Shown: positions 14,063 through 59,384 of the stretch, in pieces
Numbering within the stretch: position 1 is the first letter of the stretch
How the letters are laid out: each line of letters begins with the position of its first letter
DNA from: Gemmatimonadota bacterium
GTDB taxonomy: Bacteria; ARS69
Assembly: GCA_030747075.1 (NCBI GenBank)
Contig: JASLLL010000009.1
Location: 1-64,000 of the forward strand
Length of the DNA stretch: 64,000 nt
Reading direction: 5' to 3'
Position numbers and translations under genes: made by a program
Notes under the pieces: model-generated
Database searches by the model: none
What the model saw: the letters and a program-made list of their open reading frames with translations, nothing else
Told to the model about the DNA's origin: nothing

Positions 14063-14614
14063 ATGAAGCGTTTCATGACCATTCTTGCTGTCCTGTCCGT
14101 CCTCGTGCTGGCCACCAGCGCCACCGCGGAAGTCTACGGCTGGACCATCTCGGGCAGCGCCACGGATCCTTTTGTGAACACAGGAACGGCGGCTTTTGGC
14201 GTGGGTTTCTTCACGCTCCACTTCGTGTGTGACTCTGACGGCATGTCCGCTGCCGAGTTTGACATTGGCGGAACCATGACCGTTTATGCGTTCACCCCGC
14301 TGAACGGTTACCTGAACGCCGGTGGCGCCACCAACCTCATGCTTGCCGTGGGTGGCTGCCCGGTGGGTCCGCTGGCTGCCGGCACCGTCATGGCGCTGGA
14401 CCTCGGTGGAGCGATCTACCCGATGGACTCCGCCGCGAACGCCCTCAATGTGACGGTGAACTGTGCCGCCACGGATATGTTTGACAACAACTACATCGGC
14501 TACTCGACCGACGGTTCGGCTCCCGTGTCGAACGTTGCTGACGCTTCCGCTCTCTGCGTCGGAACCGGTGTGGAGCCCTCCAACTGGGGCGCCATCAAGG
14601 GTCTGTATCGCTAG
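14063..14614 (+). CDS. Exported protein ending in the WGxIKxLYR signature (paralogue A)
   Basis: A 183-residue protein. A clear signal peptide (MKRFMTILAVLSVLVLATSA, cleavage near TA/EV) leads to a beta-rich domain of unknown family that starts VYGWTISGSATDPFVNTG. Conserved cysteines occur in FVCDSD, VGGCPVGP, VNCAAT and ALCVG. The last residues are NWGAIKGLYR directly before TAG. It is about half identical to the next gene by eye, so the pair arose by tandem duplication. The GAGGG before the ATG at 14063 fixes the start. It has its own promoter and a strong terminator, so it is a single-gene unit, perhaps well expressed. I recognise no known domain. Confidence 0.8.
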   Translation: MKRFMTILAVLSVLVLATSATAEVYGWTISGSATDPFVNTGTAAFGVGFFTLHFVCDSDGMSAAEFDIGGTMTVYAFTPLNGYLNAGGATNLMLAVGGCPVGPLAAGTVMALDLGGAIYPMDSAANALNVTVNCAATDMFDNNYIGYSTDGSAPVSNVADASALCVGTGVEPSNWGAIKGLYR

Positions 14615-14640
14615 TTGATACGCTCTTTTGTGAAGTATTG

Positions 14641-14670
14641 GGGGCTTCCTTCGGGGAGCCCCTTTTTTTT
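14641..14670 (+). terminator. Rho-independent terminator after paralogue A
   Basis: A 9-bp stem with one G-U pair (GGGGCTTCC / GGGAGCCCC) closed by a TTCG loop is followed by eight T. A textbook intrinsic terminator. Confidence 0.93.
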
Positions 14671-14753
14671 GAGTTCGGGCGGGATGAGAGGGGGATGCGC
14701 GGGGCGCGCCGGGCTGCTGCCATGCGCCGGTGCACTGGACGAAAGGAGGCGAC

Positions 14754-15317
14754 ATGAAGCGTTTCGCGGCTCTTTCCGCAACGCTGCTGGTCCTCATTCT
14801 GGCAGGCGGCGCGGCAGCCGAGGTCCACGGCTGGACGATCTCGGGCAGAACGGACGATCCCTTCGCCAACACGGGCCCTCCCGCGAACGGAATCGTCTAT
14901 CTCACCCTCTGGTATGCCTGCCCGTCCGACGGATGGTCGGCAGCGGAGTTCGATCTCAGCGGATCCATGACCGTCCTCGGATTCATTCCGAACAGCGCAT
15001 TTTCTGTTCTGAACTCGGGGGGCGCCGAGAATCTGTTTCTGGCGGTCGGTGGTTGTCCGAGCGGCCCCATGCCCGCCGGGTCCATCGTGGCGCTGGACTT
15101 CGGCGGGACTCTCTGCATCGTGCCGAGTGCGGCGAACGGGCGCAATGTGACCGTAAACTGCGATCCCACGAATCCGCAGGCGTTCAACAACCTCTACACC
15201 GGATACGCCAGCGACGGGTCCACTCCCTGCTACAGCGTGCCGCCTCCGCATGAGGTGTGTATTCCGGTCTTCGCGGAGGAGTCCCGCTGGGGGACGATCA
15301 AGAGCCTGTATCGCTGA
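14754..15317 (+). CDS. Exported protein ending in the WGxIKxLYR signature (paralogue B)
   Basis: A 187-residue protein, clear paralogue of the gene before it: a signal peptide (MKRFAALSATLLVLILAGG, cleavage near AAA/EV) and the same VHGWTISG opening. It shares the block AEFDLSGSMTVLGF, the VGGCPSGP motif and the cysteine pattern. It ends RWGTIKSLYR before TGA. AAAGGAGG lies 7 bases before the ATG at 14754. It follows the terminator of paralogue A, so it needs its own promoter, which I could not pick out. Function unknown; an exported, probably disulphide-bonded surface or envelope protein is the most I can say. Confidence 0.8.
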   Translation: MKRFAALSATLLVLILAGGAAAEVHGWTISGRTDDPFANTGPPANGIVYLTLWYACPSDGWSAAEFDLSGSMTVLGFIPNSAFSVLNSGGAENLFLAVGGCPSGPMPAGSIVALDFGGTLCIVPSAANGRNVTVNCDPTNPQAFNNLYTGYASDGSTPCYSVPPPHEVCIPVFAEESRWGTIKSLYR

Positions 15318-15756
15318 CACGGTGCTCTGAAAGAGGTTGTCGGGGAGTGGATTGGTTGTGTTGCAGAGATTGTTGTCGGGGACCAAGGGCCGGGCTTTCG
15401 GGCCGCGAAGAGAGCCGCCGGGGCGCACGACAGCCTACTCAGATGTGTATCTCATTATAAGGCCACAGGTTGGACGCTGCAGAACGCGAGCCCCGGCTCT
15501 CAGGCGAACCAGAACCCGCCTGGTCCATCCCCCCGGGGAGGGGGCGTGTCTGGGGAATCCAGTGCTATTGGCATTCAATCCGCCGACAAACCGGCCGATC
15601 CGGCCGTTCCCCACCGGATTCGCATGCGCGGTCAACCGTGCGCCGGGCACACGAAAGTGTGTCAGAAAGGGAACTTAGCGCGACGGAGACGCCCGGAGGG
15701 CGGCGCGGGGCAGAACAACAATCTTCGCGACACAACTTTCGGGACACAACCCCGGG
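15318..15756. other. Gene-free stretch between convergent genes
   Basis: These 439 bases hold no open frame that looks coding. A direct repeat GTTGTCGGGGA occurs at 15336-15346 and 15372-15382, and a locally AT-rich TCATTATAAGG lies near 15450. Short GC hairpins occur, but none has a T run. It separates paralogue B from the minus-strand gene that ends at 15757. Confidence 0.6.
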
Positions 15757-16389
15757 CTATCGGTGGGAGCCGGGCATGACTTCGCGGAGAGCATACGCCA
15801 GCAGGCGCGTCATGCGTTCCATTTGCCGGGCGTGGTACGGTTCGTCGGAGGATGCCCACAGGAACACGGCGGCGGCCGGGACGGGTTCGATGGTCTTCCC
15901 CCGGTTCACCCGCGCGGTGAGCAACTCCAGGAGATCCTCGACGGCCCACGCGTCGGGGGGGAGCCGGTCGAGATCCTCCCACACTTCGCGAATGTGATAG
16001 ACGACCTCCTGAATGTCGTGGAGCGCGGCTCCCTTTCGCAACAGATCCCGGGCAACTCGCTCCACTTCCAGCAGCTCCAGAAAGCTCCCTGCAACGGGGG
16101 TCGCACGAACCCGGCCCCGCTTCCGGAACGACTTGGGAAGGGCTGCCATGGCGGCTTCCACCCCCTCGAAACCCAGCCACTTGAACGCCCCGCGGATCGG
16201 TCCGCCATCGTAGCCGGTGGACCAGGCCTCGGCATACTCGCTCGGGCCGGAACCGGGGGGAGGCGGTGCCCACGGGGGCGAGACCTTCCCGAACCGGGAG
16301 AGCTCGCGCAGGTGTCTGGGCAGCGGCTGGCGCAGGAACGCCTCGACAAGCGGAGGCGATGATCCGCGAGGATTCCGGGTTCGAGGCAT
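15757..16389 (-). CDS. Hypothetical protein, 210 residues
   Basis: I do not recognise this protein. The frame is open further upstream (to 16539), but the ATG at 16389 has AAGGAG with 6-base spacing, and the extra N-terminal part looks unlike protein. There is no signal peptide or membrane helix. The N-terminal third is rich in Pro and Arg. The middle contains a helical block with LELLEVERVARDLLRKGAALHDIQ, and the C-terminal half is acidic and helical (VWEDLDRLPPDAWAVEDLLEL). It is likely cytoplasmic. It stands alone between two gene-poor gaps, divergent from thiC. Codon use looks normal for the window. Confidence 0.55.
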   Translation of the reverse strand: MPRTRNPRGSSPPLVEAFLRQPLPRHLRELSRFGKVSPPWAPPPPGSGPSEYAEAWSTGYDGGPIRGAFKWLGFEGVEAAMAALPKSFRKRGRVRATPVAGSFLELLEVERVARDLLRKGAALHDIQEVVYHIREVWEDLDRLPPDAWAVEDLLELLTARVNRGKTIEPVPAAAVFLWASSDEPYHARQMERMTRLLAYALREVMPGSHR

Positions 16390-16833
16390 ATTCCGCTCCT
16401 TCCGCGAGTCCAGGGGGCGTACCGGGCCCAAGCCCGCAGCACGCCGTCTGCACCAGCAGAAGCCGCCCGATGCTCCCGAGGGCGGATGAGCCACGAACGG
16501 GGCCGAGGGGAGGATTGAGATACCCTCAACGCAAGGCACCCCAACGAGTTGCCGAATCTCAACCGGGGTTTCCCTCGAGTTCGGCCGGTCCGTTCGCCTG
16601 AATCAAGAATCCCACGCGACTTGGAAGAGGGCAAGGGAAGATCTGCCTCGCTCCGAGGAGGGAGCGGTTGATCGAAGGGGGAAATCCCGCCTGAACGGGC
16701 CGGATTGGCCCAAACCATGCTGTTTCGAAGAATGTGGATCTTCCGGGGCGATCCACTCCGCGTCCTATGGACCGCAACGGGGGAATCCCCTAAAGTGCGG
16801 CATGGAGAGCTTCATTACCCCGGAGAAACGATC
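16390..16833. other. Intergenic region before thiC
   Basis: A 444-base divergent gap. I looked for a thiamine pyrophosphate riboswitch, which often controls thiC, and saw neither its CTGAGA core nor its second conserved block. The only clear signal is the promoter-like pair at 16768-16796. Confidence 0.6.
16768..16796 (+). promoter_or_regulatory. Putative promoter of thiC
   Basis: TGGACC (16768-16773), a 17-base spacer and TAAAGT (16791-16796). The leader would be only about 30 bases, which leaves no room for a riboswitch. Confidence 0.35.
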
Positions 16834-18321
16834 ATGGATACGCGCAACCCTGAGAATAGCGGAAAGATCGGCCCTGTAGAGCCCGATCACGGCCCCGGCT
16901 ACGGTCGCCTGGACGATATGGACCCGGATCTTCGCCCCCGGGCGGAGTGGGTGGAGGCTCGACGGGGGGATCCCGTCCGAACGCAGATGCACTATGCCCG
17001 GAAGGGACTCGTCACCGAGGAAATGTGGGTGGTTGCCGGGCGGGAGCGCCTGGAACCGGAGTTTGTCCGGGATGAAGTCGCCCGTGGACGGATGATCATT
17101 CCCTCCAATGGGAACCATCTCAATCTGGTCCCCATGGGGATCGGCATTCACGCCCGATGCAAAATCAACGCGAACATCGGGAACAGCGCGGTGACTTCAG
17201 ACGCCGACGGGGAAATCGAAAAGCTCCGACGCTGCATTCGCTACAAGGCGGATACGGTGATGGACCTCTCCACAGGCGGGGACATTGCTGGAATCCGCGA
17301 CGCCATCATCCGCCGCAGCCCCATTCCGGTCGGTACGGTTCCGCTCTATCAGGCCATTCAGGAGGTGCGCGCCGTCGGGGAACTGACGCCGGAAGGGCTC
17401 CTTGCCGTGATCAGGTCTCAGGCCGAGCAGGGCGTGGACTACATGACGATCCACTGCGGCCTTCTCCGGGAGCATCTCCCGATGGTGTCGGGGCGGATCA
17501 CCGGCATTGTGAGTCGCGGCGGGTCGCTCATGGCACAGTGGATGATGGAGCACCACCGCCAGAACCCGCTGTTCGATTGCTACGACGAGATTCTGGAAAT
17601 CTGCCGGGAGCATGATGTTTCCCTCTCGCTCGGGGACGGGCTTCGCCCGGGGTGCCTGCACGACGCTTCCGATGACGCCCAGTTCGCGGAACTCGAGGTC
17701 CTCGGGGATCTCACACGGCGCGCCTGGGCGAAGGATGTCCAGGTGATGGTCGAAGGGCCGGGGCACATTCCCATGGATGAAGTGGTGATGAATGTCGAGC
17801 GCCAGCAGGAGTCGTGCGATGAAGCTCCGTTTTATGTGCTGGGCCCCATCGTGACCGATGTCGCCCCCGGATATGATCACATCACCTCCGCGATCGGCGC
17901 GGCCATGGCGGGGCAGGCCGGTGCGGCGATGCTCTGCTATGTGACCCCGAAGGAGCATCTGGGGCTTCCGGACGCGGGCGATGTGCACCAGGGGATCATC
18001 GCCTACCGGATTGCCGCGCATGCGGCGGATGTCGCGCGCAAGCGCCCGGGCGCACGCGACTGGGACGATGCGCTCTCCCGTGCGCGCTACACCTTCGACT
18101 GGAACGAGCAGTTTGATCTGTCGATGGACCCGGACACCGCTCGGTCCATGCACGACGAGACGCTCCCCCAGGATGTATTCAAAGGCGCGGAGTTCTGTTC
18201 CATGTGCGGCCCGAAGTTCTGTTCCATGCGGATCTCGCAGCAGGTGGATGAGTACAATGCCCGTCAGGCCGGGATGGAAGCGCCCATGCGGTTCCGGGAG
18301 TCTGCGGAGACGGCGCCCTGA
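16834..18321 (+). CDS. thiC: Phosphomethylpyrimidine synthase ThiC
   Basis: A 495-residue radical SAM enzyme that turns aminoimidazole ribotide into the pyrimidine phosphate of thiamine. The unusual C-terminal cluster motif C-x2-C-x4-C is visible as [13 protein letters not shown] near residues 455-463. Family blocks include [33 protein letters not shown] and the [14 protein letters not shown] segment. GGAG before the ATG at 16834 sets the start; the longer open frame from 16705 has no family match. No other thiamine gene is adjacent. Confidence 0.96.
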
Positions 18322-18350
18322 TCCGGCTGCGTGCTGAGGGGAGGCTTCTC

Positions 18351-18971
18351 GTGAGCAAGATGCGTCACAGGCACCGGCTGTACGCGTGCGCGCTTCTTGC
18401 GTGGGCCGCAGTGCCCTTCGCGGCGGGATGCGGCGGAGACACCTTCGACCCCGGGGGGGTTCCCCCGCCGGACATCTCCACGCCCGGCGGGCTGATCCGC
18501 GCGCTGGAAGAGCATTACAGCTACCAGAGACCTGACAACGCGCTGGCGCTGCTTCACCCCGACTACACCTTCACCCCGGCGCGCCCGGATTCCATCGACT
18601 GGCTGGCCGGTGCGCCCTCCTGGGACCGGGACGCGGAGGAGAACATCCTGGAGGATCTCCTCGATGGTGTCCGTGAAAGCTGGATCGATCAGGTGCTTCT
18701 GGAAGTGGCGGTGGACTCCGTGGCTCCCGCGACGGACCCCGATTCACTTCCGGTCGGGGCCACCGTGAGCGTTCACACGCGGGTGGATCTGTCCCTGCTT
18801 CTGCCCGGATCGCACTATCAGGCCGGCCATTCGAAGGTGGTCTTCGTCTGTCGCAGAGAGGACAACGGCGACTTCCTTCTTCTGGAGGAGCGCGAATCCG
18901 TGGAACTGGAAGCAGACCGGACGGTCGGGGAACTGAAAGCGGTGTACTACGACACTCCGGAGGGGGGTTGA
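18351..18971 (+). CDS. Hypothetical lipoprotein
   Basis: A 206-residue protein starting at GTG (18351) behind GGGAGG. The signal peptide ends in the lipobox PFAAGC. The mature part (LIRALEEHYSYQRPDNALALLHPDYTF, then a late HYQAGHSKVVFVCRREDNGDFLLLEERE strand region, cited in part) looks like the small cone-shaped NTF2-like fold often seen in exported proteins. That fold is inference. It begins about 30 bases after thiC and its stop overlaps the region just before the next gene, so it may be co-transcribed with both. Function unknown. Confidence 0.6.
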   Translation: MSKMRHRHRLYACALLAWAAVPFAAGCGGDTFDPGGVPPPDISTPGGLIRALEEHYSYQRPDNALALLHPDYTFTPARPDSIDWLAGAPSWDRDAEENILEDLLDGVRESWIDQVLLEVAVDSVAPATDPDSLPVGATVSVHTRVDLSLLLPGSHYQAGHSKVVFVCRREDNGDFLLLEERESVELEADRTVGELKAVYYDTPEGG

Positions 18972-18973
18972 GC

Positions 18974-20014
18974 ATGGCCGGCATGGGGGCCGTGGTCATG
19001 CGCGACTTTGGCGGCCCGGAGGTTCTCGAATGGGCGGAGGTCCCGCGGCCCGTCGCGGAAGGTGATCGTGTTCTGGTGCGCGTCGCCGCATGTGGGCTGA
19101 ACCATCTGGATCTTTGGACCCGGAGCGGACATCGCGGCCGGTCCATTCCTCTCCCGCACATTCTCGGAAACGAGCCGGTCGGTTTTGTGGAAGAGGTGGG
19201 GCCGCGCGCGGAAGGGGTTGCACCGGGCGACTTCGTGGTGGTCGCGCCCGGGTTCCTCGATCGATTCCGTGCCGATCGATCCGGCTGGGACACTCGGTAC
19301 CCGGAATACGGCGTCATCGGGAACCGCGCCCCGGGCGGCTACGGGGAGTACCTCGCCGTTCGGGCGGAGCATGTCGTGCGCGTGTCGGACCGGTGGTCGC
19401 CCGAAGAGTGGGCCGCCACGCCGCTCGTCTTCCTGACCGCATGGCACATGCTGGTCGGTCGCGCGCGCCTCCGGCCGGGGGAGACCGTGCTGGTGGTGGG
19501 TGCGGGCAGCGGAGTCGGGTCATCCGCCGTGCAGATCGCCCGGCACTTTGCCTGCCGCGTCATCGCGACCGCGGGCACCAGAGAGAAGCTCTCGGCCGCG
19601 AAAGAACTGGGAGCGCACGCGGCCGTTCTCCACGGGCAGGACGCGTGGTCCGCGGAAGTTCGGGAAGCCTCCGGCGGGCGCGGCGTGGATGTGGTCGTGG
19701 AGCATGTCGGCGAGGCCATCTTCGAGGACGCCGTGAAGACGCTTGCGCACGGGGGGCGCCTCGTGACCTGCGGAAGCACCACCGGGCCGTCGGCTCACCT
19801 CAACCTGACGCACCTTTTCGCGAAGCAGCTCTCCATTCTCGGGAGCTACATGGGCGACCATGCGGAACTGCTCGATGTACTGCGGCTTCTGGATGCCGGG
19901 AAGCTGAAACCGGTCGTGGACCGCGTGTTCCCGGTTCGCGAAGCCGCGAAAGCCCACGCCCGCATGGAGAATCGCGAACATTTCGGCAAGATCGTTCTGC
20001 GCCACGGGGCCTGA
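18974..20014 (+). CDS. Zinc-type alcohol dehydrogenase / quinone oxidoreductase family protein
   Basis: A 346-residue medium-chain dehydrogenase. A GroES-like N-terminal half contains VRVAACGLNHLDLWTRSG and ILGNEPVGFVEEVG. The Rossmann NAD(P)-binding half has VLVVGAGSGVGSSAVQIARH. The four-Cys structural zinc loop of classic alcohol dehydrogenases is missing (GNRAPGGYGEYLAV stands there), and the usual GHE catalytic His is Asn in GNE. It may therefore be a zinc-poor quinone-oxidoreductase-like reductase. The ATG at 18974 lies just after the lipoprotein stop; an in-frame TTG at 18968 is a less likely start. Substrate unknown. Confidence 0.8.
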   Translation: MAGMGAVVMRDFGGPEVLEWAEVPRPVAEGDRVLVRVAACGLNHLDLWTRSGHRGRSIPLPHILGNEPVGFVEEVGPRAEGVAPGDFVVVAPGFLDRFRADRSGWDTRYPEYGVIGNRAPGGYGEYLAVRAEHVVRVSDRWSPEEWAATPLVFLTAWHMLVGRARLRPGETVLVVGAGSGVGSSAVQIARHFACRVIATAGTREKLSAAKELGAHAAVLHGQDAWSAEVREASGGRGVDVVVEHVGEAIFEDAVKTLAHGGRLVTCGSTTGPSAHLNLTHLFAKQLSILGSYMGDHAELLDVLRLLDAGKLKPVVDRVFPVREAAKAHARMENREHFGKIVLRHGA

Positions 20015-20027
20015 CCCGGGAGACCGA

Positions 20028-23641: not shown

Positions 23642-23669
23642 TCGCCCACGACAGGGCCCGGGGCCTGTG

Positions 23670-24395: not shown

Positions 24396-24495
24396 GAGCG
24401 TCTCCAGTGCGTTTCCGTGCAGAATATGCGCATTTCGCCCCCTTCGGGAACCTCGGATTGGCTGCGGGGTATGGAAGCCGGGTCCATCGGGATGC

Positions 24496-24524
24496 TTGAC
24501 CCGACCGGTGGAGCTGCCGATACT
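24496..24524 (+). promoter_or_regulatory. Putative promoter of the metal-efflux operon
   Basis: TTGACC (24496-24501), a 17-base spacer and GATACT (24519-24524). The -10 box lies inside the palindrome at 24514-24530. Confidence 0.5.
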
Positions 24525-24530: not shown

Positions 24531-24559
24531 GAATGTTGGTTTCTTGCGGGAGATGGCAA

Positions 24560-32185: not shown

Positions 32186-33003
32186 GAGCGCTCTTCGGAT
32201 TGGACCGACCCCTGTTTGCCATGCTCCATGTTCCGCCGTGCCCGGGCGTTCCCGGGTTCCCGGGGGTGGAGGAAGCCGTGGAGGCGATGACGCGTGATCT
32301 GGATGCGTGTCTCGCCGGAGGGATGGATGGGGTCGTGCTTGAGAACATGCACGACTTCCCCTGCGTGCGCGAGGCGGAGATGGGGCCGGAGGTGGCGGCG
32401 TACATGACCCGCCTGGCCGTGGCGGCGCGAGCGCGGACGGATGAACTGTCCGAAGGCGCCCGCCGCCCGCCGATCGGGATTCAGGTGCTCTTCGCGGCAA
32501 ACCGCACGGCTCTGGCGGTGGCGCAGGCGGCGGGACTGGACTTCATCCGTGCGGAGGCGTGGACGCATGCGCACATCAGCGACAAGGGATGGATCGATGC
32601 GCAGGGAGGGCGCGTCGTGCGTTACCAACACGCGATCGGCGCGAGCGGCATCCGTGTTTTTGTGGATGTGAAGAAGAAACACGCCAGCCACGCGCTGACC
32701 GCGGACCTGGCTCCGGGGGAGGTGGCCGCACTTCAGGAACTGCACCGTGCGGACGGCGTGATCGTGACCGGATCGGTCACGGGGGATGCGCCGGACGCCT
32801 CGGAACTCCGGGAGATTCGCGGTCAGACGAAGCTCCCGGTTCTTCTGGGAAGCGGGATCGACGCGTCCAACCTGGCGGAGTTCTTCCCCCTTGCGGACGG
32901 GTTCATCGTGGGGACGAGCCTGAAGGAAGGCGGGGAGTGGGATGCGCCGGTGGACAAGCGGCGCGTTCGGGAACTGGCGGAAGAGGCCCGGCGGTTGCGC
33001 TAG
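32182..33003 (+). CDS. btpA: BtpA-family TIM-barrel protein
   Basis: A 273-residue protein of the BtpA/SgcQ family. It shows AMLHVPPCPGVPG at the start, VVLENMHDFPC, then FIRAEAWTHAHISDKG, and finally PVLLGSGIDASN and ADGFIVGTSLKEGG, which form a phosphate-binding end of a TIM barrel. In cyanobacteria BtpA stabilises photosystem I; in other bacteria the role is unknown, sometimes near sugar genes. It starts at GTG 32182 behind GGAGAGG, and shares GTGA with the stop of the metal pump. It may therefore be translated as part of the efflux operon. Its stop shares CTAG with the convergent gene. Confidence 0.85.
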   Translation: MRALFGLDRPLFAMLHVPPCPGVPGFPGVEEAVEAMTRDLDACLAGGMDGVVLENMHDFPCVREAEMGPEVAAYMTRLAVAARARTDELSEGARRPPIGIQVLFAANRTALAVAQAAGLDFIRAEAWTHAHISDKGWIDAQGGRVVRYQHAIGASGIRVFVDVKKKHASHALTADLAPGEVAALQELHRADGVIVTGSVTGDAPDASELREIRGQTKLPVLLGSGIDASNLAEFFPLADGFIVGTSLKEGGEWDAPVDKRRVRELAEEARRLR

Positions 33004-35234
33004 TGGATGCGGACGGACTTGACGGAGGCGCGTCGTCCTCCGCCCGTGATGTTCAGGAAGTAGACTCCCGCGGGAAGCAGGGTGCCGTCGTCTGCGCGTC
33101 CGTCCCAGGTCGTGGTCGAAGCGCCTTCCCGGAATGAGGGGGGCACGAGCGTTCGCACGCATCGCCCCGCGATGTCCATGACGCGCACGGTAAGGCGCGT
33201 GCCTTCCGTTCCCGAGAGGCACAGAGTCTGTGTCCGGGAAGCGGGCTGTGGCCGGATGCCGAGTACGGCCCACGCGGCAGGGCCGCCGGTCAGGGCTTCC
33301 ACCGCCGTGGACGACCCCGGGTCATCTTCCCGCATCGTGTACAATCCGGGTGCCACGCCCTTCCAGACAGTCCGGGTTCCGGATGGCCAGTTCACCACGA
33401 CCGAGTCCGCGCTTTCCGATTCTTCGATGCCGAGCATGACGCGAAGCGGGTTCATGAAGCCGCGCCACGAGTTCGCGAAGACGCGGCGATGCACCTCGTC
33501 ATCATCGTGGTAGGCGACGACTTTCGCCCCGACAGCGGCGTGGCCGGAGAGCGTTCCAATCAGATCAAGCCGGATCGAGACTCCCCCGGCGCGGGCATTT
33601 CGGTAGTACCGGACCACTCCGTTTGCGCTGTAGGTCTGGGGTCCCGCTCCCTCGCTCAAGAACAACTCCGGAAGTCCGTCTCCGGTCAGGTCTCCCCAGA
33701 CCGCGCCATCGGCCAGTCCGGTGCTTCCTCCGGGAAGGCCTTCGCTTGCGGTCACATCCGTCAGCGTTCCCCGCTGATTGCGGTAGAGGCGGTCGGGCGC
33801 GTTCGGTTGCGCCGAGGTGCCCATGTCCACGACATGGAGGTCAAGATCGCCGTCCGCGTCATAATCCACCCAGGTGATGTGTCGCGGATTGACCATGGCT
33901 GACAGCCCCAGACTGCTGGTGACCTCCTGGAATGTCCCGCCGTCGTTGCGCCACACCCGAGGGCTCCCCGGGATGAATCCCGAATCTTCCAGATCGACTC
34001 CGGTCGCCTGCAGCGTACTTCCGCCAGCGGTGACCCACCCGTCGAAGGTGTCGAAGTTGATGTCGGGCGTGGAACAGCGGATCTGCCACGGGCCCGACGC
34101 AGACTCCCGCCACACCCAGGTTCCGCGCTCCACGCCCGGCTGGAAGTCCGGCTGGCCGATGAACTCGGGCGTCAGGAGAATGGTCTCTCCATTGGGGGGG
34201 ATCAGTTCGTCCGGCCCCAGAAAGATGCGATTGAGGTTCTGGTAGCCGCGCAGCCGGAACTGAGCGTGCAGCGTGTCGGCCGTCGTGGAGACAGTCAGTC
34301 CGTCCAGTCCCAGGTCTCCGTATCGTGTATTGAAGAAGTAGGAGAGCGTATCCCCGATGGTATAGGCGTCAAACACGCCGACCATGCCATCGCAAACGGC
34401 CAGATCCAGGTCTCCGTCGTTGTCGTAGTCTCCCCAGTCGGCTCCGGAGATTGTGGGAATGGAAGGGGTGAACACCTCCGACGCATCGACAAAGACTCCG
34501 CCGTCGTTGCGGTAGAGTCTGGTCGGTCGCGGGAACTCCTCTCCGCCGACCAGGAGATCCGGGTCTCCGTCGTCGTCGTAGTCTCCCCAGATTCCCCCGA
34601 CGGTGCCGTCGAACTCCTCCAGTCCGCTCCCGTCCGACACATCCACAAACGAGAACCCTCCGCGATTCCGAAAGAGAGCGTTGCCGTAATTCTCGGACGG
34701 GGCGGCTCCAGTCCACAGGTCCGGAAGACCGTCGCCATCGTAGTCGGCGGCGGACACGGCCCGGGTCCGCGTGGGCGGGGAGTCCGCGCCTCCCGCGTCG
34801 GGAACCGGAGTGAAGGCTCCGTCGCCCTCGTTCACATACAGTTCGTTGGCCTCCGGGCTGCTTCCTCCGCCCCCTCCGTGGGTGTAGAAGATGTCAGGCA
34901 GGGGGCTGCCGTCCAGAGGCAGAGCCACGGCGCCATGCCGGTCCATCGGGCCGACCCAGGGCAGTGGATGCAAGAGGCGGGAGAAGACGCCAGTACCGTC
35001 GTTCCAGTAGAGAATGGGGGAGTAGAAGTGGTGTCCGGCGCAGAGATCCAGGTCTCCGTCGAGATCGAGGTCCGAAAGGAAAGCTCCCCAGGTCGGCTGC
35101 GTCCAGTTCAGCCCGGACGAAACCGTCTCATCGAAAAAGACGGCCCCGGCCGGGCAGCCGCCGAGGGCGATCCATAGGGCCGCACCGACGGCCAGGAAGT
35201 GTGGAATGATTGAATGACGCAACGGATGCCCCAC
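33000..35234 (-). CDS. Exported FG-GAP/ASPIC repeat protein with FlgD-like C-terminal domain
   Basis: A 744-residue protein with an N-terminal signal segment (ending ALGGCPAGA; a lipobox-like LGGC is possible). Calcium-binding FG-GAP/VCBS repeats follow (DLDLDGDLDL, DYDGDGLPDLW, DYDDDGDPDLL, DYDNDGDLDLAV, DYDADGDLDLHV), then an ASPIC/UnbV-type domain (VNWPSGTRTVWKGVAPG). The last 70 residues are a FlgD-like Ig domain (RVMDIAGRCVRTLV, LPAGVYFLNI) of the kind used as a C-terminal export or anchoring module. The start is GTG at 35234 without a clear ribosome site, so it is uncertain. It is probably a surface or secreted adhesive protein. It shares CTAG with btpA at the stop. Confidence 0.8.
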   Translation of the reverse strand: MGHPLRHSIIPHFLAVGAALWIALGGCPAGAVFFDETVSSGLNWTQPTWGAFLSDLDLDGDLDLCAGHHFYSPILYWNDGTGVFSRLLHPLPWVGPMDRHGAVALPLDGSPLPDIFYTHGGGGGSSPEANELYVNEGDGAFTPVPDAGGADSPPTRTRAVSAADYDGDGLPDLWTGAAPSENYGNALFRNRGGFSFVDVSDGSGLEEFDGTVGGIWGDYDDDGDPDLLVGGEEFPRPTRLYRNDGGVFVDASEVFTPSIPTISGADWGDYDNDGDLDLAVCDGMVGVFDAYTIGDTLSYFFNTRYGDLGLDGLTVSTTADTLHAQFRLRGYQNLNRIFLGPDELIPPNGETILLTPEFIGQPDFQPGVERGTWVWRESASGPWQIRCSTPDINFDTFDGWVTAGGSTLQATGVDLEDSGFIPGSPRVWRNDGGTFQEVTSSLGLSAMVNPRHITWVDYDADGDLDLHVVDMGTSAQPNAPDRLYRNQRGTLTDVTASEGLPGGSTGLADGAVWGDLTGDGLPELFLSEGAGPQTYSANGVVRYYRNARAGGVSIRLDLIGTLSGHAAVGAKVVAYHDDDEVHRRVFANSWRGFMNPLRVMLGIEESESADSVVVNWPSGTRTVWKGVAPGLYTMREDDPGSSTAVEALTGGPAAWAVLGIRPQPASRTQTLCLSGTEGTRLTVRVMDIAGRCVRTLVPPSFREGASTTTWDGRADDGTLLPAGVYFLNITGGGRRASVKSVRIH

Positions 35235-48552: not shown

Positions 48553-48642
48553 GTGTTCGAGAGGAGAGCAATCCGCCTCTCAAATGCGGTAGAATGGTGG
48601 CAGTGTTACCCCCCTTCGATGCGGGACAGGAGGACTTTCGAA

Positions 48643-49653
48643 ATGCAACTCAAAATGCGCTCACACTTTGCGTCGGCGACTCGGATCGCGTCGCTTCTTC
48701 TGCTTGCGGGTTCTCTTGCGCTCCCGGCAGAGGCCGCGGTGATGATCAATGAGTTCGAACGCGCGTCGGGTTCGGACTATGTGGAGCTCTACAACGACGG
48801 GACGGTCTCGGTGGATCTCTCCGGTTGGACACTGGAGAGCAAGCTGGGCGTGGTCATTCCTCTGTCCGGTGTCATTTCCGGAGGCGGATACACCACGCAC
48901 AGCACATCCAATGTCGTGCTCGACGGGGGGGAGATCGAACTTTACGACGGCAGTTACCTCAAGCGTGACGAAGTCGCTTTCGGATCCGCCGGGGGGGCGC
49001 CCGCCGTACCGCCGATCGGTTCATACTCCTGCGGTCGCGCCCCGAACGGTACAGACACCGGGAACGACGCCGCCGACTGGAACCTGGCGACCAGCAACTC
49101 ACTCGGTTTTGCAAATACGCACCCGGTCGCGAATCTGAACGGCTGGGTGGCCATGAACGAAGTGGGCTTCCAGAGGTTCCGCTCCTCCGCGGGGTGTGAA
49201 CTCGGAGCGACCGTGGTGGAACTGTTCAACTCCACCGGAACCTATGTGGATCTCTACGGGTGGTGGGTGACCAACGGCCGCAAGGTGACCGTTCTCTTCG
49301 GGATGATTGCCCCGAACGGATTTGCCGTATTCAATGACCTTGCCACGGGGTTCTGCTTTGACGAGACCGAAGTGATCTATCTCTTCGGACCCACCGGTCG
49401 ACGCTTCGATCAGTTCGGTACGAAAGGCGCCCGGCTCCCCGACGAGAGCTTTACCTTCCAGCGTGTTCCGGACGGCACGGGCGGACAGGGTCCCTTCGAC
49501 GGGTTCGACTATGTATCGAGCGGCGGGTCGAGGGTGCTGTTCATGCTCCCGCAAACCTGGAACGACACGAACGATCAGGCCACGCCGATGGCGGCGGACG
49601 ACCCCGCGATCGAGGCCGGAAGCTGGGGGAGGGTCAAGGCCCTCTACCGCTAG
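48643..49653 (+). CDS. Exported lamin-tail-domain protein ending in the WGxVKxLYR signature
   Basis: A 336-residue protein with a signal peptide (SATRIASLLLLAGSLALPAEA/AV). Two lamin-tail-like (LTD) domains follow: the first has MINEFERASGSDYVELYND and WTLESKLG, the second MNEVGFQRF, VELFNSTGTYVDLYGWWV. It ends SWGRVKALYR before TAG. GGAGG lies 9 bases before the ATG at 48643; two further in-frame starts (48619, 48655) exist. LTD domains occur in many exported bacterial proteins, often with nucleases or adhesion parts. It lies second after the sigma-54 promoter and is likely controlled by the TPR-GAF regulator. Confidence 0.8.
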   Translation: MQLKMRSHFASATRIASLLLLAGSLALPAEAAVMINEFERASGSDYVELYNDGTVSVDLSGWTLESKLGVVIPLSGVISGGGYTTHSTSNVVLDGGEIELYDGSYLKRDEVAFGSAGGAPAVPPIGSYSCGRAPNGTDTGNDAADWNLATSNSLGFANTHPVANLNGWVAMNEVGFQRFRSSAGCELGATVVELFNSTGTYVDLYGWWVTNGRKVTVLFGMIAPNGFAVFNDLATGFCFDETEVIYLFGPTGRRFDQFGTKGARLPDESFTFQRVPDGTGGQGPFDGFDYVSSGGSRVLFMLPQTWNDTNDQATPMAADDPAIEAGSWGRVKALYR

Positions 49654-49679
49654 GTTGGTGCGGCTGCGGGCGGGCTTCT

Positions 49680-51662: not shown

Positions 51663-51844
51663 ACTTCCCGAATCGGATGGATCCACCTGAAAGTTCAGCG
51701 ATAAGCGACGAAGAGCGGGGGAAGCCTCCGGGTTTCACTCTATTGGATGTGCTCCGAGCGGGTCAAGGACCGCTCACAGCGAGGGGAGCGGACATGGGGA
51801 ATCCTCCCGGATTCTTGCGGTTCCTGACACGCTCCCCGCGCTCT

Positions 51845-53563: not shown

Positions 53564-53617
53564 GGAGTCCTCCTTTTGCCCGGGCGGGGCGATGGTTGTG
53601 TTCCGGCTGAGATCGCG

Positions 53618-54619
53618 TCAACCGGACGCGGGGACCTCGGCCGTCCGGAAGTGCAGGAGGTGGATCTCCACCCCGACTCCGTGGATCGTGAGTTCCAGAT
53701 TGCGGGTTCCGAAAGAGGCGGACCCGGTGACCTCATATACGCGCCCGTCGTCCACCGGGATGCGTGCGATTTCATCCTCGGGGAGCAGATCGGCCCCGGC
53801 GTCCTGCGGGCCGGGGGGTGCCCCGTTCAGCGTGACATGGACGGAGGCGTGTTCCCTGGCGGCCGCCACGATGTGAACCCCCGCCGAGGAGTGCACCACC
53901 GCCAGTCCCGTCTCTTCAGAGGCAGTGGTGATCGACTCCGCGCCGACATCCCACGACCCGCGAAGGTAGGCGCGGCCTTCCTCCCGGAGTTCCGGCCAGT
54001 CTTCGAAGTGGTGCTGTCCGAGGGTCGATTCCTCCGGCCGGGTGGATGCGCCGTCGTCCCCTGCGTCGGCCCGAAACCGGATCTCCGGTGTGGCGCGCCA
54101 CCGCAGCACTCCGGGACGAATGAGCCCGGGGGGGAAAACGACCGCGGGCGGAAGGTCCGTCTCCCCGGCCTCCCGCAGCAGGGTCCGCACTCCGGCTTCC
54201 ACCTCCGGGAGTCCGCCCGCGCCGTGGTGCCAGCCACGGATGGCGCCGCCCGAGTCCAGCAGGAAGCGCGCGGGGAGGTTCCGGTTCTCATAGGCGCGCC
54301 ATGTGTCGAAGCTCCCGTCATGGGCGATCGGCCACGGGATTCCCCGTCGGAGGACCTCCAGCCGGGCGTCCTCCACGCTTCGCTCGAAGGGGTACGCGGG
54401 GATGTGGACCCCCACGACGGACAGCCCGACTCCGGCGTAGCCCTTGGCCAGACTCTCCAGCGCGGGGAGTTCAGCCATTCCTGCCGGGTCCCCGTAGGAA
54501 AAGAAGTCCAGCAGGACCACCTGGCCCCGCAGTGCCCCCAGATGGGCGGGTTCGTCGCTCAGCCACGCAGTCGGCGTGAGTTCCGGAGCGGAATAACGGC
54601 TTTCTCGAAAGAGTTCCAA
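53618..54619 (-). CDS. Thioredoxin-fold protein without CxxC, DipZ-like C-terminal domain
   Basis: A 333-residue protein. The first 150 residues follow the TlpA/redoxin fold (RGQVVLLDFFSYGDPAGMAELP, VVGVHIPAYPFERS, GIPWPIAHDGSFDTWRAYENRN, GGAIRGWHHG). The active-site position has SYGDPAG in place of W-C-x-x-C, so no redox cysteines. The C-terminal 180 residues look like the carbohydrate-binding-like domain of DipZ-type thioredoxins (GSWDVGAESI, HVTLNGAPPGPQDAGAD). GGAGG stands 7 bases before TTG 54619, so I prefer this start to the ATG at 54646, which lies before that ribosome site. There is no signal peptide. Role unknown, possibly binding only. Confidence 0.7.
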   Translation of the reverse strand: MELFRESRYSAPELTPTAWLSDEPAHLGALRGQVVLLDFFSYGDPAGMAELPALESLAKGYAGVGLSVVGVHIPAYPFERSVEDARLEVLRRGIPWPIAHDGSFDTWRAYENRNLPARFLLDSGGAIRGWHHGAGGLPEVEAGVRTLLREAGETDLPPAVVFPPGLIRPGVLRWRATPEIRFRADAGDDGASTRPEESTLGQHHFEDWPELREEGRAYLRGSWDVGAESITTASEETGLAVVHSSAGVHIVAAAREHASVHVTLNGAPPGPQDAGADLLPEDEIARIPVDDGRVYEVTGSASFGTRNLELTIHGVGVEIHLLHFRTAEVPASG

Positions 54620-54767
54620 GGGTCTTCCTCCTGAATGGACCCCCATGCATGGACCCTGGCGCCTTCGGAGTCAAGAACAGGGAAGGATTGGTCGATGTTG
54701 ACAGAGGACGGGGTCGCGATCCGGCCCCGGTCCCAGGGGAAGTTCATGCCAGAGGGGGAGGGGTGTC

Positions 54768-55424
54768 ATGCATCGATTCGAGTCGTCCACGCGTCGTACC
54801 ATTCACGGGCCCGGCGTGGCACGGTATCTCCTGGTCATTGCGGCTCTCGTGGCCGTCGTTCTGGCGCTGGTTCCCACGCTCCGTTCCTCTGCGGAGAAGT
54901 CACGGCTGTCCCGCGCGGGCGTGGATGCTCAGAATCTCGCGCATGCGCTGGCCGCCGTTCGCGAAGACACCGGACAGTGGCCTTTTACGATGGCCGGACA
55001 CCCCTCCGAAGGCAGGCCCGTAGACCGCCTTGTGAGTTCCCCCGCCGTCCCGACGAGGGCCGGTGCCGCCGCCGGGGCAGGCGCGGCAAACTGGGGGTCC
55101 TTCGGAGCTTCCATGCAACTGGGAAGCGTGCTTCGCCCTGACGACCGTCTTCAGCGCACGCAGGAAGGCCGCTGGCTCGGCCCGTACACCGATTCGGTGG
55201 AGACCACCGATCCGTGGGGAAACGCGTATGTCGTGAATGTGCGTTACCTGCCCGGCGGGGGTTACTCCGGCAAGACGCCGCATCGGGTGCTCGTCCTCAG
55301 CGCGGGGCCGGACGGCGTCTGGCAGACTTCCTATCGGGACGACACCACCGAAGCGATTCTGGGTGACGACATCGGGTATGAGGTGCCGATGCCTCGTGAG
55401 TCCGGCGTCCTCATCCCGCGCTAG
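54768..55424 (+). CDS. GspG-like pseudopilin-fold protein lacking a prepilin motif
   Basis: A 218-residue protein. A single N-terminal helix (ARYLLVIAALVAVVLALVPTLRS) leads into an alpha-helical spine (DAQNLAHALAAVREDTGQWP). A C-terminal part follows with TDPWGNAYVVNV and LSAGPDGVWQT, the calcium-site region of GspG pseudopilins. The usual prepilin-peptidase site (Gly before Phe-Thr-Leu-x-Glu) is absent; the N-terminus is a plain membrane anchor. A GGGGAGGGG precedes the ATG at 54768. No other type II secretion or type IV pilus gene is nearby, so it is more likely a free-standing relative. Its stop shares CTAG with the convergent permease gene. Confidence 0.7.
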   Translation: MHRFESSTRRTIHGPGVARYLLVIAALVAVVLALVPTLRSSAEKSRLSRAGVDAQNLAHALAAVREDTGQWPFTMAGHPSEGRPVDRLVSSPAVPTRAGAAAGAGAANWGSFGASMQLGSVLRPDDRLQRTQEGRWLGPYTDSVETTDPWGNAYVVNVRYLPGGGYSGKTPHRVLVLSAGPDGVWQTSYRDDTTEAILGDDIGYEVPMPRESGVLIPR

Positions 55425-56650
55425 CGTTCCCTCGCCCAGCGCAGCGCCTCCGGAAGTGACGGGCGCTTTCCGTACATCAGGATGCCCACGCGGAAAACAC
55501 GCGCCGCCACAAAGAACATGCCCGCCGCCGCCGCCACCAACACTGTCCACGCGGCGGCGATCTCCGCAGCCGGAAGCGGCCGGATGGAGTGGCGGAAGAG
55601 GATCATGCCCGGGGTGAGCGGCGGGAAGAACGAAAGGACCCGGACCAGTATGTGCCCCGGATCTTCCGCGATGAACACGCCCAGCATCACCGGCAGCACA
55701 AGCATGAGCGAGATGGGGCTCAGGAAGGGCTGCGTTTCGCGTTCGCTGTTGCAGACCGACCCGATGGCCCCCAGCACTCCCGCGAAGAGGAAATACCCCG
55801 GAAGGAAAAACAGGACGAAGAGTCCTGCCGTGCCGGGGTCGAGAGGAAGCGTTCCCATGCGAAGCGAAAGGAGTCCCGCGCAGGCCGCCCAGGTTCCGAT
55901 CATCGTCAGGCCGACCGCTCCGAGCCCGAGGATCTTCCCGAGCATGAGTTCCAGCGGACTCACGCTGGAGAGCAGTACTTCGATCACCCGGTTGGATTTC
56001 TCCTCGATGACGGAACGCATGAGGATCTGACTGGTGGGCAGCAGGGCGAACAGGAGCATCATGACCACGGCGACGGCCCGCAGATAGACGGCGGTGAAGT
56101 CGGCTTCGCGGCCCCCGGTGTTCCCGATGAGAAATGTGCGGGATCGGACGGGTTCCAGCAGCGACTCGATCTCCGCGCGGGACATCCCGCGCCCCGCGGC
56201 CTTGTGCACGGCCAGCGCGCGCTGGAATCGCCGTTCCACCCGGTGCAGGACCTCCGGATCCGACAGCGTTGCGGCATGATGCTCCACGGTGCCGTCGGCC
56301 GCGAACTCCGGCGGCACGAAGATCCATCCCCGAATCTCCTCCCGGCGAACGCGCTCATCCAGTTCTTCGGCGTTCGCCTCGCCGGCAGTCTCCTCAAAGG
56401 CGAACGAGATGCGGGGCGTTTCGTCCGCGTCCGGCGCCTCTCTCGCAAGAAGCGGCGCGATCTCCCCCGTGCCGTCCACCACGAGAAACTTGTGCTCGGT
56501 GGGACCGGCCATTCGTGTTCCGAAAACCGGAAGGAAGATCAAGAGCATCATGATGGCCGGCGTGGCCACCAGTCCGAAGAGAAACGACTTCTTCCGGACG
56601 CTCTCCAGATACTCGCGGCGGAAAACGAGGAGGATCTTCGCTCGGTTCAT
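55421..56650 (-). CDS. ABC-2 type exporter permease (NatB-like)
   Basis: A 409-residue permease. One helix lies near the N-terminus (SFLFGLVATPAIMMLLIFLPV), then a long periplasmic part of about 150 residues, then five or six helices. The ABC-2 signature is visible in EEKSNRVIEVLLSSVSPLELMLGKILG. Members of this group, such as NatB, export sodium or unknown small molecules with the ATPase encoded just upstream. Its start overlaps the ATPase stop (ATGA), so they are translated together. Function beyond export is unknown. Confidence 0.88.
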   Translation of the reverse strand: MNRAKILLVFRREYLESVRKKSFLFGLVATPAIMMLLIFLPVFGTRMAGPTEHKFLVVDGTGEIAPLLAREAPDADETPRISFAFEETAGEANAEELDERVRREEIRGWIFVPPEFAADGTVEHHAATLSDPEVLHRVERRFQRALAVHKAAGRGMSRAEIESLLEPVRSRTFLIGNTGGREADFTAVYLRAVAVVMMLLFALLPTSQILMRSVIEEKSNRVIEVLLSSVSPLELMLGKILGLGAVGLTMIGTWAACAGLLSLRMGTLPLDPGTAGLFVLFFLPGYFLFAGVLGAIGSVCNSERETQPFLSPISLMLVLPVMLGVFIAEDPGHILVRVLSFFPPLTPGMILFRHSIRPLPAAEIAAAWTVLVAAAAGMFFVAARVFRVGILMYGKRPSLPEALRWARER

Positions 56651-57618
56651 CGGTCCGCCCTCCCCGCGGCCGGAAGGGGAGAGACCTCCGGTTCGTCCCT
56701 CTCCGGCGCGCGCTGTCCCGACACAAGCCGAACGAAGATCCGGTGGAGGCTCGGGCGCCGCATCTCAAACCGCGTCACCGCAAGGCGCGGCGCGATCTCC
56801 GCCAGAATGCCGGAGGCCGAAGCTCCCGGCGCGGGTTCGATCTCCAGAGCGCTGCCGGAAAGTGTAGCGGTCCGGACGGAATCCAGATCCGGCACGAACG
56901 AAGCGTCGCCCGTGAACTCCATGCGGATGGAGTCTGTGCCGTATCGCTGCTTCACTTCGGAGAGTTCCCCTTCGATCAGCATGGATCCGGAGTCGAGCAG
57001 GGAAAGGTGCGTGCACATTCTCTCGACTTCGTCCATCAGGTGGGTGGACAGGAGAATCGTGACCCCGTCGCCCGCGAGCTCCGTGAGGATCTCGCGGAGA
57101 AGATCCTGATTCACCGGGTCCAGTCCGGAGAATGGCTCGTCGAGCGCGATCAGTTCCGGGTTGTGAATCACGGCGGAGATGAACTGCACCTTCTGCTGAT
57201 TCCCGCGGGAGAGTTCCTGCAGGCGAAGCGAGGATGACGCGGCGATTCCCAGCCGTTCCAGCCAGCGTTGCCCGCTCTCCCGGGCGGCGGTCGCAGAGAG
57301 TCCCTTGAGACCTCCGAAGTAGACGAGGTTGTCGAGCACCCGCATGGACCGGTACAGCCCTCTCTCTTCGGGGAGGTAGCCGGTTCGTGCCGTGAGCGAT
57401 CCGCCCGGCGTCTGTCCGAGGACGCGGATCTCCCCTTCGTCGGGACGGAGGATTCCCATGAGCATGCGAATCGAGGTGGTCTTGCCCGCGCCGTTCGGGC
57501 CGAGGAGTCCGTAGATGGAGCCTTGCGGGACACTCAGCGAAAGGCCGTCCACGGCCGGGCGGTCGCCGAAGGTCTTGCGAACGCGGTCGAAGTGGACGGC
57601 GGGATCGGGCGCGAGCAC
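56647..57618 (-). CDS. ABC transporter ATP-binding protein (NatA-like)
   Basis: A 323-residue ATPase with Walker A GLLGPNGAGKTTSIRML, the Q-loop region, the signature LSRGNQQKVQF, Walker B LIALDEPFSGLDP and the switch His in STHLMDEVE. A 100-residue C-terminal extension has the DUF4162-like look found in NatA and related drug ATPases. It starts at GTG 57618 with AAGGAG seven bases upstream. It is paired with the permease gene that follows. It energises the export of an unknown substrate and lies divergent from mqnP. Confidence 0.92.
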   Translation of the reverse strand: MLAPDPAVHFDRVRKTFGDRPAVDGLSLSVPQGSIYGLLGPNGAGKTTSIRMLMGILRPDEGEIRVLGQTPGGSLTARTGYLPEERGLYRSMRVLDNLVYFGGLKGLSATAARESGQRWLERLGIAASSSLRLQELSRGNQQKVQFISAVIHNPELIALDEPFSGLDPVNQDLLREILTELAGDGVTILLSTHLMDEVERMCTHLSLLDSGSMLIEGELSEVKQRYGTDSIRMEFTGDASFVPDLDSVRTATLSGSALEIEPAPGASASGILAEIAPRLAVTRFEMRRPSLHRIFVRLVSGQRAPERDEPEVSPLPAAGRADR

Positions 57619-57749
57619 GGCGACGCTCCTTGCATGAGTACGCGCAGGCTACCAGAGAAGGCGCGTGCCGGGCGTCTCTTTCTTGCGCGGGGCTTGCGTC
57701 GGTGCCAGCTTCCCCGCATTCTCTGCGGCGACCGTCGGGAGGGGATCGC

Positions 57750-58592
57750 ATGGCCGGGGTTCGGACGCTTCTGTCCTTCGTGAAGTTCGAGCACACGCTC
57801 TTTTCATTGCCGGTGATCGTGGCCGGTGCGGTGCTCGCGTCCGGCGGGGTGCCGGAAGGGGCCGTGCTTGCGTGGGTTCTGGTTGCCGGGACAGGAGCGA
57901 GGACGGTCGCGATGGCGCTCAACCGGCTCATCGACCGGGAGATTGACGCACGGAATCCGCGTACTGCATCCCGTGAGATCCCGGCGGGCAGGATGTCCAC
58001 GCTTGGCGGCTGGGGCGTGGCGATCGCCGGGTTGGTGCTGTACTTCGGGGCGCTGGCGTTTCTCCCGCCGCTGTGCCTTGCGCTGTCCCCCGTCCCGCTG
58101 ATGGTGTTCGTGATCTATCCGCTCATGAAGCGATTCACTCCGCTCGCGCACTTCGGCGTGGGAGCCGGGCTTGCGCTGGGACCTCTCGGGGCGTGGGTCG
58201 CGGTCACGGGTACGCTGGTTCCCTGGGGGCCGGCGCATACGCTGGCGGTCTTCACGCTCCTGTGGGTGGCCGGATTCGATGTGATCTACGCCACGCTGGA
58301 TGAAGATTTCGACCGCGCGGAGGGACTCCGCTCGCTGCCCGCGTCATTGGGACGGACGCGCGCGCTTCGAGCGGCACGCGGGGTCCATGTCGCCGCGTTC
58401 GTCGCCCTTGCGCTGGTCGCGGCACCCGCGATGCCGGGCGCGGGGTCGTGGTTTCTGCTGGCCGCGGTCGGAGCGATGCTCGTGGCTGAACATGTCCTCG
58501 CGGCTCGCGTGGACCTCTCGTTTTTCCGGATCAATGCGGCGCTCGGGTTTGTCGTGCTGGCATTCGTCTGGAGCATCCTTCCCGCAGGCTGA
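57750..58592 (+). CDS. mqnP: UbiA-family prenyltransferase, probably MqnP of the futalosine pathway
   Basis: A 280-residue membrane enzyme with eight or so helices. The first Mg-prenyl-diphosphate motif is NRLIDREIDARNPRTASREIP, the second DVIYATLDEDFDRAEGL. It attaches the isoprenoid tail to the aromatic ring. The genes that follow (mqnM, mqnL, mqnE, mqnA) mark it as the tail-adding step of menaquinone made by the futalosine route rather than a ubiquinone enzyme. GGGAGG lies before the ATG at 57750; the open frame starts further left at 57630. It may share a promoter region with the divergent ABC operon. Confidence 0.9.
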   Translation: MAGVRTLLSFVKFEHTLFSLPVIVAGAVLASGGVPEGAVLAWVLVAGTGARTVAMALNRLIDREIDARNPRTASREIPAGRMSTLGGWGVAIAGLVLYFGALAFLPPLCLALSPVPLMVFVIYPLMKRFTPLAHFGVGAGLALGPLGAWVAVTGTLVPWGPAHTLAVFTLLWVAGFDVIYATLDEDFDRAEGLRSLPASLGRTRALRAARGVHVAAFVALALVAAPAMPGAGSWFLLAAVGAMLVAEHVLAARVDLSFFRINAALGFVVLAFVWSILPAG

Positions 58593-58614
58593 ATCCGTCG
58601 AGGGGAGAGGGATC

Positions 58615-58875
58615 ATGACGACACAACTCTGGCTGCTCGCGGGAGCGATCCTCGTGGTCAATCTTCCCTTCGGATACTGGCGCGCCGCGTGCCGGAGGCG
58701 GAGTGCGGCCTGGTTTCTGGCGATCCACATTCCCGTTCTCCTTGTGATCGGGATGCGCGCGCTCCTCGGCGTATCGCTCCACTACACGACCCTTCCCGTG
58801 ACCGTGGGAGCGTTTGCCGCCGGGCAGTTTCTCGGCAGCCGTCTTCGCGGGCGCGGCTCCCCGCCTCAGCGGTAG
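58615..58875 (+). CDS. Small membrane protein next to mqnP
   Basis: An 86-residue protein with three hydrophobic segments (LWLLAGAILVVNLPFGYW, WFLAIHIPVLLVIGM, LPVTVGAFAAGQFLG) and a basic end. A GGGGAGAGG precedes the ATG at 58615. It follows mqnP by 22 bases and so is likely co-transcribed. I have no family name for it. Its last 10 bases overlap the 3' end of the convergent tagged protein. Confidence 0.65.
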   Translation: MTTQLWLLAGAILVVNLPFGYWRAACRRRSAAWFLAIHIPVLLVIGMRALLGVSLHYTTLPVTVGAFAAGQFLGSRLRGRGSPPQR

Positions 58876-59384
58876 AGCGACTTGACCTGTCCCCAGGAAC
58901 CCGGGGGGCAGCAGTCTTCCGGCGCGGAGACATCCGGCGACTCCAGCGCCCCGGTGTCGATCCACTCGCGAATCACATCGATCACCGGCTGACTCAAGGG
59001 CTGTGCGCCGCGAGGCATCCGCGAACCGACCATCCCCTGACAGAACTCCAGCTTGCAGATGAGGTAGCTGTTGTCCGCGGAGAACGGCTCGACCCGCAGC
59101 CACGAGGGAGCCTGCGAACTCCCGATGCCCACGAGCGAAGCCCAGGAGTTGCCGTCGCGAAGATCCAGTGAGGCCTGGGCCGCGCTTCCATGACAGAAGG
59201 AGGCGGCGCAACCCGGCGTGAAGACATTCGCCTGGATGGCGGGCAACTCGGGAGGAAAGAACTCCCCGCGGGAAGGCGGGGCTTTGGCATGGGGTTCCGC
59301 CCCGGGTTGGGCGGCAGGACCGGCGGACGCGGCGACGGGCAGCAGAGCGACGAACGCGAGGATGGCGAGGATCACGAGGCGCAC
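58866..59384 (-). CDS. Exported cytochrome c-like (CX4CH) protein ending in the WGxVKxLYR signature
   Basis: A 172-residue protein. The start is GTG 59384 (GGGAAGAG upstream), giving a signal peptide LVILAILAFVALLPVAASA/GPAA. The domain holds C-A-A-S-F-C-H (C-x4-CH), a second pair C-x5-C in LICKLEFCQG, a Met in GSRMPRGAQPL and the closing REWIDTGALE, as in the lipoprotein at 10591-10998. It ends CCPPGSWGQVKSLYR before TGA. It lies inside the menaquinone cluster but on the other strand. A role in electron transfer is suggested by fold only; heme binding to a CX4CH motif is not certain. Confidence 0.75.
   Translation of the reverse strand: MRLVILAILAFVALLPVAASAGPAAQPGAEPHAKAPPSRGEFFPPELPAIQANVFTPGCAASFCHGSAAQASLDLRDGNSWASLVGIGSSQAPSWLRVEPFSADNSYLICKLEFCQGMVGSRMPRGAQPLSQPVIDVIREWIDTGALESPDVSAPEDCCPPGSWGQVKSLYR

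Follow-up and report, generated by a model that had tools for sequence, protein, structure and literature searches.

A short bipartite C-terminal tag on unrelated exported proteins of several uncultured bacterial phyla and its possible link to type IX secretion

Four predicted exported proteins encoded on one stretch of a Gemmatimonadota bacterium genome (contig JASLLL010000009.1 of assembly GCA_030747075.1, positions 1 to 64,000; hereafter the window, at its full length of 64,000 nucleotides) end in almost the same peptide, W-G-x-[IV]-K-[GSA]-L-Y-R. A first-pass annotation of the window proposed that this ending is a sorting or processing tag. Is it a genuine signal, and if so, which machinery reads it? 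We find that it is a genuine, widespread and apparently undescribed C-terminal tag that is maintained at the level of the peptide. In all likelihood it sorts or processes exported proteins. Our preferred reading, which we hold tentatively, is that it serves as an ultra-short, bipartite alternative to the known secretion or anchoring signals of the type IX secretion system (T9SS) on proteins exported by Sec.

A tag with a fixed register

All four proteins end in the signature as first described (Table 1), and dinucleotide shuffles of the window yielded no tags. The tag is real, and it is longer than the 9-10 residues originally assigned to it: the consensus spans about 17 residues in two parts, P-[VT]-[PAS]-[VT]-E-x-x-[ST]-W-G-x-[IV]-K-[AS]-[LM]-Y-R. 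The P-[VT]-[PAS]-[VT]-E element occupies positions -17 to -13 and is followed by two free residues, [ST] at -10 and then WGx[IV]K[AS][LM]YR. There is no length variation within the tag; conservation reaches about -19, and upstream of about -20 the tagged proteins show none. A proximal element of the form [TVSI][GSAP][VI][EDPN] lies exactly at -16 in 31% of cases and at other offsets in 0.3%.

Because the search pattern itself demanded W, G, K, Y/F and R, independent evidence for the tag comes only from its other positions and from a relaxed scan. That scan, over 7,861 open reading frame tails, recovered 160 tags in the strict form and some 17 plausible variants (including SWAQIKGLYR, SWSELKALYR, SWGGIKALYW and NWGRLKRLYDY), against 3 matches for each of two rearranged motifs. 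The variants indicate that the G and the last R are strong, not absolute, preferences. In the loci examined, the stop directly follows the motif in 173 distinct tagged proteins, with 7 exceptions that mostly end a few residues later; five permuted motifs gave no match in these loci. All four glycine codons (GGC, GGT, GGA and GGG) are used, and the stop is TAG, TGA or TAA (98, 51 and 22 cases). This variation bears out the proposal, made from the window alone, that selection acts on the peptide. The 173 tails contain no transmembrane helix, LPXTG site or conserved cysteine, as the four original tails had suggested. Neither Pfam nor NCBIfam has a model that covers the tag, and we found no mention of it in the literature searched.

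Table 1. Tagged proteins, their tags and a protein with the alternative C-terminal signal, in window coordinates
Feature	Position	Strand	Description or basis
Tagged protein 1, 183 aa	14063..14614	+	Signal peptide; beta-rich, weakly cohesin-like body; tail ...GVEPSNWGAIKGLYR
Tag 1, WGAIKGLYR-stop	14585..14614	+	Sequence
Tagged protein 2, 187 aa, tandem paralogue of protein 1	14754..15317	+	Tail ...EESRWGTIKSLYR
Tag 2, WGTIKSLYR-stop	15288..15317	+	Sequence
Tagged protein 3, inferred start codon	48643..49653	+	Signal peptide; lamin-tail domain(s); tail ...EAGSWGRVKALYR
Tag 3, WGRVKALYR-stop	49624..49653	+	Sequence
Tagged protein 4 (open reading frame), start codon uncertain	58866..59573	-	Hydrophobic export signal; tail ...PPGSWGQVKSLYR
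Tag 4, WGQVKSLYR-stop	58866..58895	-	Sequence
FG-GAP/UnbV protein with FlgD_ig C-terminal domain	33000..35234	-	PF13860, 33.8 bits (cut-off 27)

Distribution was assessed with a looser pattern, W-G-x-hydrophobic-K-x-x-[YF]-R-stop, and with the same pattern reversed as a control. The window's genome (2.67 Mb, with a listed completeness of 100%) contains 11 exact WGx[IV]KxLYR-stop sites and 18 looser matches, and the five genomes of its phylum, itself included, have 18-33 looser matches each, all with controls at zero. In about 85,000 named species genomes the pattern matched at least 118 stretches. The carriers belong mainly to Eisenbacteria, Krumholzibacteriia and allied uncultured lineages. 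Among the matches listed are Eisenbacteria, Krumholzibacteriia, Latescibacterota, a Zixibacteria bin, a Poribacteria bin and several unnamed bacteria, together with some seemingly misnamed records (Fibrobacter IMS_BF and Gemmatimonas SW.020); four of the listed records appear to be the other genomes of the window's phylum (G001, DHS20C21; G002, JAGQIB01; G003, JALGZO01; G004, JALGZR01). Fifty named genomes, a biased set picked for having the tag, carry 1-71 matches each, 1,234 in total, with controls at zero. In a less biased set, the 47 genomes from the phylum of an Eisenbacteria record, 44 have the tag. As a further control, 2.9 million viral contigs gave a single match, in a small signal-peptide protein ending RWGDVKRSYR (locus L336, IMGVR_UViG_3300044847_000035).

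An Eisenbacteria subclade (G035 and G077-G085) has 0-3 tags per genome, and its few tagged proteins are mostly lamin-tail or cytochrome-like. The Poribacteria bin (G007; loci L287, L297 and L302) has three somewhat divergent tails, AVTWGNVKTDYR, TTTWGRIKLIYR and TAIWGTIKQEFR, two of them on LamG-like bodies, and Poribacteria may have a broader and less strict family of tags.

Unrelated passengers with export signals

Could the shared ending reflect chance, or common ancestry of the proteins that carry it? Some carriers are indeed related, namely tandem paralogues and beta-helix paralogues, and kinship among the passengers goes no further. Clustering by passenger divides the 160 tagged proteins into 58 clusters, which, like the loss of conservation upstream of about -20, argues against common ancestry. 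Summed over 86 genomes, including the window's own and its relatives, there are 1,724 pattern matches and none for the reversed control. We thus give chance or ancestry a negligible probability. The first-pass description of three unrelated bodies in the window holds. Protein 3 is confirmed as a lamin-tail protein (PF00932, E=3.7e-15), proteins 1 and 2 are paralogues (54% identity), and the body of protein 4, described as cytochrome-like, matched no Pfam domain.

Passenger folds include beta-helices, NHL propellers and lamin-tail domains, most of them repeat or display folds, and further passengers appear from their sequences to be LamG-like or cytochrome-like. That the carriers are exported, as first claimed, is supported by signal-peptide-like starts in 124 of 140 tagged open reading frames versus 246 of 674 others (p=2e-31); the calls were made with a simple home-made rule, and the 16 misses include several fragments or frames with wrong starts. 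A few tagged proteins (loci L070, L072 and L086) have a lipobox (...LVGC), and the tag can therefore sit on a likely lipoprotein. In the AlphaFold2 model of protein 1 (pLDDT, the predicted local distance difference test score, 80) the body is ordered and has only weak cohesin matches in Foldseek; the tag residues 176-183 fall below 50 and lie outside the folded body. The fold prediction for protein 3 is a low-confidence model (pLDDT 48).

A terminal peptide of this kind might instead mark proteins for a periplasmic C-terminal protease, or shield them from one, and the C-terminal placement and invariant last residues would suit such a role. Counter to this, the tag is limited to exported, display-type proteins, spread over the 58 clusters, and comes with a second, upstream element; no protease is linked to it. 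We consider a role in stability very improbable.

Type IX secretion as the candidate reader

The most telling link to the T9SS is suggested by the passengers. Ten tagged proteins have relatives that end in a FlgD_ig C-terminal domain (CTD) in place of the tag, and in two of these cases the relatives are adjacent paralogues (loci L102 and L133). Among 187 tagged and 56 CTD proteins, none carries both signals. This exchange suggests that the tag and the FlgD_ig CTD serve a similar function. In these loci the linkers of FlgD_ig domains show an enrichment of [TS]G[VI] (10/40 vs 2.6), which is reminiscent of the tag's proximal element; both resemble the PT/GI consensus reported for the PorU cut site of Prevotella intermedia T9SS cargo (PMC11969387). 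The FG-GAP/UnbV protein in the window exemplifies this other C-terminal signal class in the same genome.

The components of a T9SS are also present. The window's genome encodes SprA, PorV and PorU, with a full-length porU adjoining porV (G000:C14:37317-41816, L313); the C-terminus of this PorU is a FlgD_ig-type CTD instead of the tag. SprA was found in all five genomes of the window's phylum and in 43 of 50 other tagged genomes, the PorV family in 53 of 55 tagged genomes, and PorU-type matches in 33 of 33 genomes, 22 of them above the curated cut-off. FlgD_ig-type CTDs reside with the tag in the same genomes. The exclusion of the T9SS in the first-pass annotation is thus unsupported, and so is its inference that the machine must be entirely unknown. 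Outer-membrane proteins of the PorV family have undergone a strong expansion: all but two of the tagged genomes (G000-G054) carry 6-24 copies each.

In the scheme that we favour, the tag would do for its carriers what the FlgD_ig-type CTD does for other proteins of the same cells. The precursor would be exported by Sec and its signal peptide removed; the flexible tail would then be taken up in the periplasm by the outer-membrane T9SS, comprising the SprA translocon and a PorV- or SprF-type shuttle. The protein would reach the cell surface and there be either set free or anchored; a PorU-type cut close to the upstream [VT]-[PAS]-[VT]-E element may come first. Different classes of T9SS signal use different shuttles (PMC12618676), which makes it plausible that the same translocon reads one more class.

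Several observations weigh against reading by the T9SS. Sec signal peptides and, in the window's genome, SprA, PorV and PorU accord with T9SS cargo; the folded beta CTD of 43-100 residues, with its motifs B, D and E, is missing from the tag, and the shortest known CTDs have 43-55 residues (PMC11969387). T9SS parts are near-universal in this clade, so that co-occurrence is weak evidence and cannot prove dependence. Genomes of the tag-poor Eisenbacteria subclade retain the main PorV orthogroups and, where it was detected, SprA. We built a tree from 92 proteins of the PorV family, drawn from five tag-rich genomes, five tag-poor ones and one without tags; none of its clades follows tag richness, and we rejected a tag-specific PorV paralogue as a candidate. 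Bacteroidota are the best-known T9SS phylum, and no Bacteroidota label occurs among the matches listed. Finally, in bin G044 (QHRS01, labelled Rokubacteria) 7 tags are spread over 7 contigs and FlgD_ig CTDs are present, with SprA and PorV undetected. As to contamination, its tag contigs are not compositional outliers, and the CTDs lie on tag and non-tag contigs alike. In G033 (JADZDL01, labelled Planctomycetota), which is probably contaminated, 3 tags share one small contig and SprA and PorV were likewise undetected. G044 and G033 may be mislabelled or mixed bins, or a real exception.

Alternatively, a dedicated, undescribed machine independent of the T9SS (an outer-membrane transporter, protease or ligase) may read the tag and sort or process its carriers. 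Arguing for this case, the tag resembles no curated signal in Pfam or NCBIfam, SprA-bearing genomes vary from 0 to 71 tags, no PorV clade follows the tag, and G044 is tagged with SprA and PorV undetected. Against it stand the exchange of passengers with FlgD_ig CTD proteins and an exosortase distribution that does not match that of the tag, and no candidate gene emerged near tagged genes or near SprA: the conserved neighbours of tagged genes are only paralogues, CTD proteins and family-level synteny, and SprA neighbourhoods in 20 genomes hold conserved, mostly housekeeping-like genes and no tag-specific one. We regard such a machine as unlikely overall; its specific form, an outer-membrane machine common to Eisenbacteria, Krumholzibacteriia, Latescibacterota and the window's phylum, is doubtful. 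Genes flanking SprA in many genomes (L160-L177), named from sequence only, include LptF/G-like permeases, MetK, NusA and IF2, and nine of the neighbourhoods contain a secreted peptidase- or glutaminyl-cyclase-like protein, named in the same way.

The tail could also be a docking peptide, through which already exported proteins bind a common partner in the envelope or at the surface, such as a scaffold, polymer or barrel protein. Its small size, its flexibility and its many invariant residues (W, K, Y and R) are like those of a binding peptide, and it sits mostly on repeat or display folds. We think this improbable: no anchoring partner is linked to the tag, and the fixed proximal element and the CTD exchange fit a sorting signal at least equally well.

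Processing by an exosortase, sortase or rhombosortase is extremely unlikely. Exosortase occurs in 23 of 55 tagged genomes, including the window's, and is absent from the tag-rich G022 (51 tags), G042 (44), G001 (33) and G054 (33), on which ground it was rejected as a general partner; sortase and rhombosortase genes were not searched. The tails have neither membrane helix nor LPXTG. The exosortase of the window's genome lies at G000:C3:91125-91895, and a PEP-CTERM-like system may coexist there with the tag and the T9SS.

Significance and comparison with known signals

With hundreds of unrelated exported proteins carrying it in several uncultured phyla, the tag has the appearance of a surface-targeting address. 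Genomes of phyla known mostly from metagenome-assembled genomes encode tens of tagged exported proteins each, so that part of their surface proteome becomes predictable from sequence. If the T9SS reads the tag, a peptide of about 17 residues replaces a domain of 70-100 residues and the minimal T9SS signal is redefined; a compact tag for surface display could follow. If the T9SS is not the reader, the tag is a handle for finding a new secretion or sorting machine, whose Gram-negative C-terminal signal would have neither folded domain nor membrane helix.

Other short C-terminal tags also mark many unrelated exported proteins per genome, namely those of the PEP-CTERM/exosortase, GlyGly-CTERM/rhombosortase, MYXO-CTERM/myxosortase and LPXTG/sortase systems. 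These differ from the WG tag in consisting of a hydrophobic helix preceded by a specific signature, neither of which it has. The 173 tails do not show the PEP-CTERM combination of PEP motif, transmembrane helix and basic tail, and neither they nor the family scans revealed the LPXTG, Gly-Gly (GlyGly-CTERM) or Cys (MYXO-CTERM) signature with the hydrophobic helix and basic tail that follow it (genes for the partner proteases were not searched).

T9SS CTDs of types A (TIGR04183/PF18962), B and C are folded domains of about 70-100 residues (PMC10202324, PMC11285876). The tag differs in its length, in having no folded domain and in its unrelated W-G-x-[IV]-K motif, and no known CTD family (PF18962/TIGR04183, type B or PF13860) matches at it. 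The short CTDs of P. intermedia retain three beta strands and the usual motifs B, D and E (PMC11969387), which the WG tag lacks; like the tag, they coexist with long CTDs in one organism as a second class of shorter signals. What the tag has in common with the A, B, C and FlgD_ig (PF13860) domains is its C-terminal position on Sec-exported passengers of many families in genomes with SprA, PorV and PorU, a frequently basic last residue, and the use of either signal by related passengers.

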